Position numbers and translations under genes: made by a program. A stretch of 59,609 nt of DNA. It comes from an uncultured Lachnospiraceae bacterium. GTDB taxonomy: Bacteria; Bacillota; Clostridia; Lachnospirales; Lachnospiraceae. Location of the stretch: positions 1-59,609 of the forward strand of contig CAMWLV010000003.1 in the NCBI GenBank assembly GCA_947175175.1, given 5' to 3'. Shown here in pieces: positions 18,665 through 53,766 of the stretch (the first letter of the stretch is position 1; each line of letters opens with the position of its first letter). The notes beneath the pieces were generated by a model. The model was not told the origin of the DNA, ran no database searches, and was given only the letters and a program-made list of their open reading frames with translations.

Positions 18665-19450
18665 TCAGTTCACTCTCTTCATGACCTTCATTGCTGTGAC
18701 AGCAAGTTTTCCCAACAGTGTATTTCCCACAAACACATTGTAGTACGTAATCTTTTCCCCGCCAAATTTCAGCTTAAATTCATCAATTCCATTCGGATTT
18801 TCAAAATCGGAGATTCCACCCCAGTCGTATCGCTGCAGTCCTTTTTTCTTAAAATACAGGATATCCTCCCAATGGAGACGTTTGTTCGCACGGCCGATCA
18901 TGGACTGATCCGCACTCTCCTCCCGGAAGCAGGAGGCAGAATGCAGCAATCTGGCATCTGTGTCATCGCAGATATAGGAGTGGAATACCAGCATTTCATC
19001 CTCATGCCATACTGCAGAAAATACAATCCCATCCGCATCAAGATACTTTTTAACAGCAGATATGTTCAGCTTTGTATCGGATCCCTTTGACTGATACATC
19101 CGCTCATAAATATCAGCAAAAGCCGCGATCAGTTCTGGTGCATTCTCTATGTCTGTTTTGGTATAGAAACGTATTTCGATATTATCTTTTTCACTTCTGC
19201 GAAACTGATATCTGACAGCCTTATTGATCGCCGCGAGCATCTCTTCTTCTGTAATGGTAATATCATTCATACAGGTATGATACTCCTGCCATCCCCGAAA
19301 GCGCCCTTTTGTCTCCCCAATGGGAACACCATGCACAAACAGAATGTCTGCCTTTCTCTTCTGCTTTAAAAGTTCTGATATAGCAATATCTCTGGGATAC
19401 CATATCTGATTCACCTTTAAAAATTTCTTCTGATACGAGATATCAATCAT
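18665..19450 (-). CDS. GNAT/FemAB-like N-acyl or aminoacyl transferase
   Basis: 261 aa; LLHSASCFREESADQSMIGRANKRLHWEDILYFKKKGLQRYDWGGIS fits FemAB/GNAT-like fold. Confidence 0.55.
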   Translation of the reverse strand: MIDISYQKKFLKVNQIWYPRDIAISELLKQKRKADILFVHGVPIGETKGRFRGWQEYHTCMNDITITEEEMLAAINKAVRYQFRRSEKDNIEIRFYTKTDIENAPELIAAFADIYERMYQSKGSDTKLNISAVKKYLDADGIVFSAVWHEDEMLVFHSYICDDTDARLLHSASCFREESADQSMIGRANKRLHWEDILYFKKKGLQRYDWGGISDFENPNGIDEFKLKFGGEKITYYNVFVGNTLLGKLAVTAMKVMKRVN

Positions 19451-19482
19451 AGTTTATACCCCTTGCGTGCTCCGGCACGCAT
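19447..19482 (-). CDS. putative 11-codon leader mini-ORF MRAGARKGYKL* overlapping the downstream start (ATGA)
   Basis: ATG CGT GCC GGA GCA CGC AAG GGG TAT AAA CTA TGA; second copy at 47644-47679 has identical length and overlap. Confidence 0.35.
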   Translation of the reverse strand: MRAGARKGYKL

Positions 19483-19521
19483 ACCAATCAATAGTTTGAA
19501 AGTGACCTTCTTTCAAACTTC
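19463..19521 (-). repeat. two-hairpin leader repeat, copy 1
   Basis: Stems gcgtgc(19465-19470)/gcacgc(19475-19480) and gtttgaaag(19494-19502)/ctttcaaac(19510-19518); near-identical copy at 47660-47718. Confidence 0.8.
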
Positions 19522-19587
19522 CTGCCTTCCCACAAAACTGTACAAAAACCATATCCACTTTACTTGTTCCATGGCAATTCCAAAATA

Positions 19588-46804: not shown

Positions 46805-46965
46805 TTAGGAACTGTCGCGAAATAACCTTTCATTTTGACTTGTCTAAATCCACACATGCGTCGTTGTCGTCAATCGGCGTACGTCCAGTACGCCTCACTC
46901 CTCCGCCTAGCCTGTATGAATTTATTCTGCGTCAAAATTGAAAGTTATTTCATGACAGCTCCTTA
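46805..46965. repeat. palindromic element A (~161 bp)
   Basis: Terminal inverted arms TTAGGAACTGTCGCGAAATAACCTTTCATTTTGAC vs (minus) TAAGGAGCTGTCATGAAATAACTTTCAATTTTGAC; central ggcgta-N7-tacgcc. Confidence 0.8.
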
Positions 46966-47647
46966 TGGTTTTACGGATCAACATAAATGCTTCCGCCCGC
47001 TCCATGCCTGCTGCCATGCCGCGCGTTTTTGACAGCACATCCATCCCTGTCAGACTTCTCGGGTGTGGAAAGCTGCAAAGCTCTGACACATAACAGTTCA
47101 TCGCCTGCTCCTTCTTGTCATAATAATCGGAGATATCCACAAATACATTCGGACAAAAAGCAGACTGTACACTGTAATCAAAATTCCACTCTGTGGAAGA
47201 AAGCGTCTCAAAGGCATAAATCTCCTCCACACTATAGTCACCGATCGGTCTTGTCGCCGTGAGTACCGCGCGCGCTGTATACTGGTGGTCTACATTCAGA
47301 TCACCGCTGTAATGTGTATAGATAATCTGTGGCTGTAGTTCCTGTATTTTCTGCTCCACTGCTTTTACAATGTCCAGCAGGTCCACATCATCAAAACGAT
47401 TGTCTGGAAAATCCGCAAAAAATACGTTCTGGAATCCTACTGCCTCGGCACTCTCCAAAGTGTTTTGATGAAGTTCTTCCACAACCTCCCTGTCTGTATC
47501 CTCCCGATGGGTACCGCGCGAGGTCTGCCCCTCCCCCAAAATATAGGCATAGACAACATCGCCCTCCGCCACATGCCTTGCCACCGTTCCGCCAACTCCG
47601 AGAATCTCATCGTCTGGATGTGCCGCCACAACCAAAACTGTTTTCAT
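46922..47647 (-). CDS. PIG-L family N-acetylglucosaminyl-type deacetylase
   Basis: VLVVAAHPDDEILGVGGTVARH; HYSGDLNVDHQ; C-terminal ~12 aa encoded within palindromic element A. Confidence 0.9.
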   Translation of the reverse strand: MKTVLVVAAHPDDEILGVGGTVARHVAEGDVVYAYILGEGQTSRGTHREDTDREVVEELHQNTLESAEAVGFQNVFFADFPDNRFDDVDLLDIVKAVEQKIQELQPQIIYTHYSGDLNVDHQYTARAVLTATRPIGDYSVEEIYAFETLSSTEWNFDYSVQSAFCPNVFVDISDYYDKKEQAMNCYVSELCSFPHPRSLTGMDVLSKTRGMAAGMERAEAFMLIRKTIRSCHEITFNFDAE

Positions 47648-47679
47648 CTTTTATCCCCCCTGCGTGCTCTGGCACGCAT
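47644..47679 (-). CDS. putative 11-codon leader mini-ORF MRARARRGDKR* overlapping the downstream start (ATGA)
   Basis: ATG CGT GCC AGA GCA CGC AGG GGG GAT AAA AGA TGA; same geometry as 19447-19482. Confidence 0.35.
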   Translation of the reverse strand: MRARARRGDKR

Positions 47680-47718
47680 ACCAATCAATCGTTTGAAAGT
47701 GAACTTCTTTCAAACTTC
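47660..47718 (-). repeat. two-hairpin leader repeat, copy 2
   Basis: Stems gcgtgc(47662-47667)/gcacgc(47672-47677) and gtttgaaag(47691-47699)/ctttcaaac(47707-47715). Confidence 0.8.
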
Positions 47719-48511: not shown

Positions 48512-48675
48512 TAAGGAACTGTTCAGAAATAATATGTGCAACTTGCGCAGAATATTTCTTCGAGGGTGCAGGTCAAAAAACGCAGGCGTAGCGGGCTACG
48601 GCGAGGCTTTTTGACCTGTGCAATCGGAGAAATAGACAAGTCAAGGTGTACAGATTATTTTTGAACAGATCCTAA
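48512..48675. repeat. palindromic element B (164 bp)
   Basis: taaggaactgttcagaaataa...ttatttttgaacagatcctaa; internal caggtcaaaaa/tttttgacctg and cgtagc-gg-gctacg stems; near-identical to element C. Confidence 0.9.
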
Positions 48676-50989: not shown

Positions 50990-51152
50990 TAGTACTCCAT
51001 CCAGACAGAAATTGGAGTTGTGGGCTGCATGGTTCGTGCCAGTGCTAGGCAAAATTTCGACGGCGATGCGGTGGCATCGTCTAGAAATTTTAACGACGCA
51101 ATGGTGCGAAACAGGCGGTCACAATTCTAATTTCTGACCGGATGGAGTACTA
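50990..51152. repeat. palindromic element D (163 bp, different family from A/B/C)
   Basis: Arms tagtactccatccagacagaaattggagttgtg / cacaattctaatttctgaccggatggagtacta; central cgatgc-ggtg-gcatcg. Confidence 0.85.
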
Positions 51153-53602: not shown

Positions 53603-53766
53603 TAAGGAACTGTGCAGAAATAACATGTGCAACTTGCGCAGGATATTTCTTCGAGGGTGCAGGTCAAAAAACGTAGGCGTAGCGGGCTACGGCGAGGCTT
53701 TTTGACCTGTGCAATCGGAGAAATAGACAAGTCAAGGTGTACATGTTATTTTTGAGCAGTTCCTAA
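53603..53766. repeat. palindromic element C (164 bp)
   Basis: Same as element B with about 8 mismatches by eye. Confidence 0.9.

Follow-up and report, generated by a model that had tools for sequence, protein, structure and literature searches.

Two leaders in a gut Lachnospiraceae genome are very probably copies of a small mobile element that replaces ribosome-binding sites

Two near-identical leaders in the window, the whole 59,609-nucleotide stretch of DNA that we analysed, are very probably copies of a non-autonomous mobile element of Lachnospiraceae, about 66 bp long, that replaces ribosome-binding sites. As far as comparison of sequences reaches, the mobility of the element, its position and orientation, its new Shine-Dalgarno (SD) sequence, its two-hairpin fold and the unrelatedness of its host genes were all established. 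Safe places for mobile DNA are few in a compact bacterial genome, and the element appears to have made one, namely the gap between the ribosome-binding site and the start codon, where the gene is kept by the element's own ribosome-binding site. Apparently, it has done so in two genera, and in front of essential genes too.

Copy 1, on the minus strand from 19521 to 19447, reads GTTTGAAAG-N7-CTTTCAAAC, TATTGATTGGT, ATGCGTGCCGGAGCACGCAAGGGGTATAAACTATGA, and its linker region was also read as ATTGATTGGT on this strand. The letters of the two hairpins, the linker, the 36-nt mini-ORF and the AAGGGG were exactly as the initial annotation had described them, and the near-identical leader that it had noticed elsewhere is copy 2 at 47718-47644, which shares 91% identity with copy 1 over 75 nt. 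The hairpin-2 pattern occurred 2 times in the window, whereas 0.06 occurrences were expected by chance. Both hairpin folds were predicted, with fold z-scores of -3.2 for copy 1 and -1.6 for copy 2. The end of copy 1 is uncertain by 1-2 nt because A's flank it. The features of the two copies are as follows.

19455-19520, minus strand: copy 1, the 66-nt element, AAGTTTG...GGGGTATA; boundaries from the empty/filled comparison of other copies
19494-19518, minus strand: copy 1, hairpin 1, 9-bp stem and 7-nt loop (fold, covariation)
19481-19493, minus strand: copy 1, conserved linker TATTGATTGGTAT (alignment)
19465-19480, minus strand: copy 1, hairpin 2, GCGTGC-CGGA-GCACGC (fold, covariation)
19459-19464, minus strand: copy 1, element-borne SD AAGGGG, 8 nt 5' of the ATG
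19521-19531, minus strand: displaced SD-like sequence GGGAAGGCAGG, upstream of copy 1
19447-19482, minus strand: copy 1, mini-ORF MRAGARKGYKL*, 11 codons, 36 nt; frame and coupling not conserved among copies
18665-19450, minus strand: gene behind copy 1, FemAB-family (weak PF02388 match)
47650-47717, minus strand: copy 2, element (covariance-model match)
47691-47715, minus strand: copy 2, hairpin 1
47662-47677, minus strand: copy 2, hairpin 2
47655-47661, minus strand: copy 2, element-borne SD AGGGGGG, 7 nt 5' of the ATG
46922-47647, minus strand: gene behind copy 2, PIG-L deacetylase (PF02585)

The window belongs to the genome of a gut Lachnospiraceae (G000; 4.1 Mb), whose assembly is fragmented and 86.5% complete. 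When it was compared with the relative G017 (97-98% identity at the eno locus), clean empty sites were found in G017 for the G000 copies at C4:24533, C155:6345, C53:9936, C50:18883, C81:12556 and C2:4902; at each of them 64-66 nt were absent, and the native SD, the spacer and the start codon were contiguous. The reverse was seen at C367 and C300, where G017 carries copies and G000 is empty. Such clean empty sites in both directions indicate that the element copies are insertions, which bears out the mobile or duplicated element proposed in the initial annotation. Two further loci gave less clean alignments: C172 also differs between the two genomes, and C30 is consistent with a filled site in G017 and an empty one in G000. 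The distant relatives G013, G002 and G005 have many of the same genes without the element and with ordinary ribosome-binding sites, and at the copy-1 site G005 reads ...GAGAGGTAGAAAACGATG, without the element. For 39 genes, relatives supplied orthologues without the element for a numerical comparison.

The insertions were in the sense orientation. At the junctions 65-66 nt were inserted and at most 1-3 A's were duplicated, ambiguous within A-runs; the pre-insertion sequences from G002 and G013 put the duplication at a base or so at most, with 1-2 nt of doubt left by the A-runs. The ends of the element, AAGTTTG... and ...GGGGTATA, showed no terminal inverted repeats when the alignments were inspected. 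A target duplication that copied the native SD into the 3' end of the element was rejected, because the 3' SD variants are unlike the native SD of the gene they precede. At eno, two tandem units are present in G000 and one in G017. The two tandem elements of G000 (C21, L191) lie before the start of an enolase leader ORF of 9 codons (M/VKNSSGGQL-like) that shares bases of its TGA with the enolase ATG, and not before eno itself; in G005 (C365, L197) this leader ORF is intact without the element.

How far the element has spread was estimated with a covariance model, R1, built from 25 copies. It gave 89 matches in G000 (E<0.002), and the hairpin-2 pattern with up to 2 mismatches occurred ~90 times in this genome, compared with 3 times for a reversed-pattern control. 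In a run over the same genus the family was found in 19 of 35 genomes, with 83 copies in G000, 82 in G017 and 0-11 in all others. Named records with the core were Acetatifactor/Roseburia-like Lachnospiraceae gut MAGs, and the core pattern matched no viral contig. None of 24 other families of the same order gave a match, and among 392 genomes of the order in a broader sample the element was present in only one further genus. This second Lachnospiraceae genus, searched with a model R2, was positive in 33 of 61 genomes, with a maximum of 51 copies in one. No relevant family of Rfam 15 matched at gathering or permissive thresholds. The contigs C97, C135 (and C122) of G000 end inside or beside element copies, which means that the repeat interrupts the assembly and that the real copy number is probably higher. 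Head-to-tail tandem arrays were found at C73, C21, C9 and C36, and four units at C237 of G439; these arrays appear to have arisen by slippage of a copy already present or by a new insertion into it. Arrays of 3-4 units in the second genus lie at G439 C237 1586-1833 and L382 1069-1266.

The geometry of the element is constant. The order is native SD, hairpin 1, the TATTGATTGGTAT linker, hairpin 2, the element's own SD and start codon, and the right boundary of the element was set by the G-run as an anchor. The start codon lay 6-8 nt past the G-run in 68 of 86 anchored copies and exactly 7 nt past it in 48, so the copies keep a conserved distance to the start codon that follows, as the first reading of the window had expected. 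The geometry also held up against the arrangements that would have spoken against that reading, random distances and places between convergent genes. In the 61 full copies, the insertion point was 3-4 nt from the start codon in 51, whereas its distance from the native SD was spread over 1-14 nt; a displaced SD-like sequence was present upstream in 53 of them, compared with ~31 for shuffled flanks. The standard deviation of the SD-to-start spacing was 1.3 nt for the element and 3.3 nt for native genes of the window. Altogether 76 of the 89 copies were close to a start, for which the chance probability is ~1e-107, as 2.5% of the non-coding strand-positions in the window qualify. In the second genus the start codon was 1-2 nt beyond the model end in 36 of 50 copies, and several of the others were internal units of an array. 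The rule has exceptions: about ten copies have no recognisable gene start (e.g., C85, C1:63648, C4:24533, C14). At C4:24533 the ATG opens a mere five-codon frame behind fabF, suggesting that an ATG-like context, not a real gene, may suffice as a target.

The genes behind the element are functionally diverse. Their Pfam families include dUTPase, GreA, BirA, CoaX, HisF, HisD, DHFR, FabF, Dus, an aconitase-family protein, MATE, MFS, Thg1, PP2C, thiamine pyrophosphokinase, FemAB and others, which are unrelated to each other; gyrA and recQ were identified by reading their translations. The element-borne SD takes the forms AAGGGG, AAGGGGG, AGGGAGG and AAGGAGG, and the assignment of AAGGGG as the SD of the gene agrees with its place in copy 1, 8 nt before the ATG. 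For the 39 genes with comparable orthologues, the predicted pairing with the anti-SD was no weaker with the element, at -10.0 kcal/mol, than for the native orthologues, at -8.2 kcal/mol (p=1e-4), and the predicted accessibility of the SD-start region was equal (0.64 and 0.63, respectively). From these predictions we infer that the new SD of the element is the one used for initiation.

In the mechanism that we propose, the element inserts in the sense orientation into the spacer between the native SD and the start codon, usually 3-4 nt before the start, and displaces the native SD by about 66 nt. Its 3' end AAGGGGGTATAA, just past hairpin 2, supplies a new SD at a near-equal distance from the start, so that the gene would stay translatable. 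The economical reading is that insertion is probably near neutral, even before essential genes, because the ribosome-binding site is replaced; the element apparently stands before such genes without blocking their translation. A fresh insertion would recreate its own target, in keeping with the tandem arrays of head-to-tail units. Hairpin 1 may later disappear from a copy that retains hairpin 2 and the SD.

Covariation across species, one of the checks suggested at the outset, supported both hairpins. In the first genus 28 double-change cells were counted compared with 9.0 after shuffling (33 distinct sequences, sequence-only alignment), and in the second 77 compared with 19.9, in a model-fitted alignment that leans towards structure. 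The signal was best at zero slide and was lost in both genera when the partners were slid by 1-3 columns. Compensatory variants were seen in hairpin 2 (ATCTGC/GCAGAT, GTCTGC/GCAGAC, GCCCGC/GCGGGC) and in hairpin 1 (GGTATGGAAG/CTTCCATACC), and the linker was near-invariant across the aligned copies. By this comparative evidence, the two-hairpin fold is conserved with both helices covarying. The two halves of the element decay differently: in G000 hairpin 1 was lost with hairpin 2 and the SD kept in 18 copies, and the reverse was seen in 3. At the C40 gene, hairpin 1 is retained in G013 (L081) and gone in G000. Thus the segment that the host needs for translation persists, and hairpin 1 is dispensable after insertion; that hairpin 1 is involved in movement is a guess. 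Outside the element, hairpin 1 was found at only one place of the genome, C5:6243 (L181). This lone hairpin 1 of G000, at C5:6213-6269, has no second half and no start codon after it.

Other readings of the leaders as regulatory devices were weighed against a mobile element. The initial annotation had put forward an ATGA-coupled 11-codon mini-ORF that would control translation of the gene. In 77 of 86 copies hairpin 2 does have an ATG at its foot, and in copy 1 the frame of this ATG ends with the ATGA overlap. However, this ATG sits within the conserved linker/hairpin sequence and no SD precedes it, in agreement with the weak initiation signal already remarked for copy 1. Because the G-run varies from 4 to 7 G, the frame that it opens stops at codon 9, 11, 12 or later, with 480 as the extreme. 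Of the 64 scorable mini-ORFs, those whose copy has an unbroken ATG and is followed by a gene, only 9 overlap the gene in the ATGA manner and 4 run in frame into it. Translational coupling is therefore not a conserved feature and is incidental in copy 1. Coupling as a general feature is contradicted by these frame statistics, and we give control by the mini-ORF very little credence. A dispersed translational control element, in which a trans-acting factor would bind hairpin 2 by the SD and copies would persist for the regulation that they confer on their genes, is better placed yet still unlikely: two covarying hairpins immediately precede the SD in the 5' UTR, the linker is near-invariant and hairpin 2 outlasts hairpin 1, but the host genes (gyrA, greA, birA, DHFR, hisF, hisD, FemAB, MATE and others) have no common function, the sites are mostly not common to relatives and the SD region is predicted to be as accessible as in native orthologues. 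No coherent set of target genes was retained at orthologues. A structure conserved with compensatory change, as in a cis-regulatory RNA leader, is present, but the copies do not form a regulon, the downstream genes being functionally unrelated. The chance that the leaders are transcription antitermination leaders (LoaP or put-like) of a polysaccharide cluster is negligible. The two-hairpin RNA does lie within a long glycosylation/polysaccharide-type gene cluster, but ~87 of the 89 copies are outside it before unrelated genes, their placement follows the start codon and not the operon head, and no Rfam family matched.

As for how the mobile element moves, a trans-acting enzyme presumably acts on it. 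No autonomous relative with the same ends was found in the genome by the hairpin-1 search, and no mobilising enzyme was found among the Y1 transposases and reverse transcriptases examined. That it is an IS200/IS605-derived miniature or a REP-like unit moved by a Y1 (HUH) transposase is rather improbable, although the hairpins near the two ends, the strict orientation, the lack of a clear target duplication and a repeated GGTAT preceding hairpin 2 would suit it. The two hairpins are dissimilar, the left flank is purine-rich with no fixed 4-5-nt target and no GTAG/CGTC tag, and no Y1_Tnp was found in the 86.5%-complete assembly of G000. Over 38 genomes the numbers of Y1 genes and copies were not related (0 and 83 in G000, 0 and 11 in G013, 13 and 0 in G022). 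Movement through RNA, with a reverse transcriptase that reinserts the element at translation starts, would explain the strict sense orientation, the RNA-like covarying fold, the copies without a 5' half and the placement tied to the start codon; we nevertheless consider it improbable to a still greater degree, since, of the two genomes of the genus with the most copies, G000 has no RVT_1 protein and G017 only a fragment below threshold, and later loss can explain the copies without hairpin 1 (C40 compared with G013). The fixed distance from the start could also reflect selection on SD spacing. Fresh polymorphic insertions already lie 3-4 nt from the start, which argues that the insertion process itself, beyond selection, is directed to start sites, although the clean cases number only about eight. 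The element is a small non-autonomous mobile repeat, and there is a real chance that this targeting makes it a new class; a class whose machinery recognises translation start sites, measuring its position from the start codon and not from the SD, and whose damage is neutralised by a carried replacement ribosome-binding site is our tentative suggestion, possible but short of probable.

The nearest described system is the TAACTGA direct repeats of Beggiatoaceae, which are likewise high-copy, adjacent to start codons and in front of unrelated genes (PMC4679880). They are mostly forward, lie within a few nt 5' of the start codons of genes, some of them essential, and consist of heptamer arrays with an SD in about 10% of the repeat regions; a translational role has been suggested and horizontal spread suspected, and the mechanism of spread was not evident to the author (PMC4679880). 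These repeats lack a pair of hairpins and an SD within the repeat, whereas the element is a 66-nt two-hairpin unit with an internal SD, and its empty sites show that it was inserted. It is small, dispersed, hairpin-forming and non-autonomous like REP and REPIN with TnpA-REP (RAYT), but it has no GTAG/CGTC tag, no Y1 transposase tracks its copies, and it stands at start codons where REPs are generic extragenic palindromes. ERIC, YPAL, BOX and RUP are also short mobile repeats co-transcribed with genes (PMC2229807, PMC3049150), and empty and filled sites are known for YPAL (PMC2229807, PMC3049150). Unlike them, the element has no terminal inverted repeats, occupies only the SD-start gap and brings a replacement SD. 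It shares end-near hairpins, orientation specificity and, as far as the A-runs at its junctions allow a judgement, the lack of a clear target duplication with IS200/IS605-derived miniatures, and differs in its dissimilar hairpins, in having no conserved left-end target and in a transposase absent from the host assembly. It resembles MITEs in the broad sense, being short, high-copy and dispersed with empty and filled orthologous sites. No description of the element was found in the open-licence papers searched, among which an account in a subscription journal could be missed.

The element raises the concrete question of how an insertion event finds a start codon. Genes with and without it form natural pairs, one with the native and one with the replaced ribosome-binding site, and in common gut bacteria scores of genes may have had their translation initiation rewired by it. 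It would also be relevant to start-site annotation and, with some contigs ending inside copies, to the assembly of MAGs. The window contains other repeats as well. A separate family is represented by an intergenic direct repeat of 164 nt with 95% identity at 48512-48675 and 53603-53766, 5.1 kb apart, and at 50990-51152, between two genes, MITE-like inverted repeat arms of 33 nt (88%) flank 97 nt.
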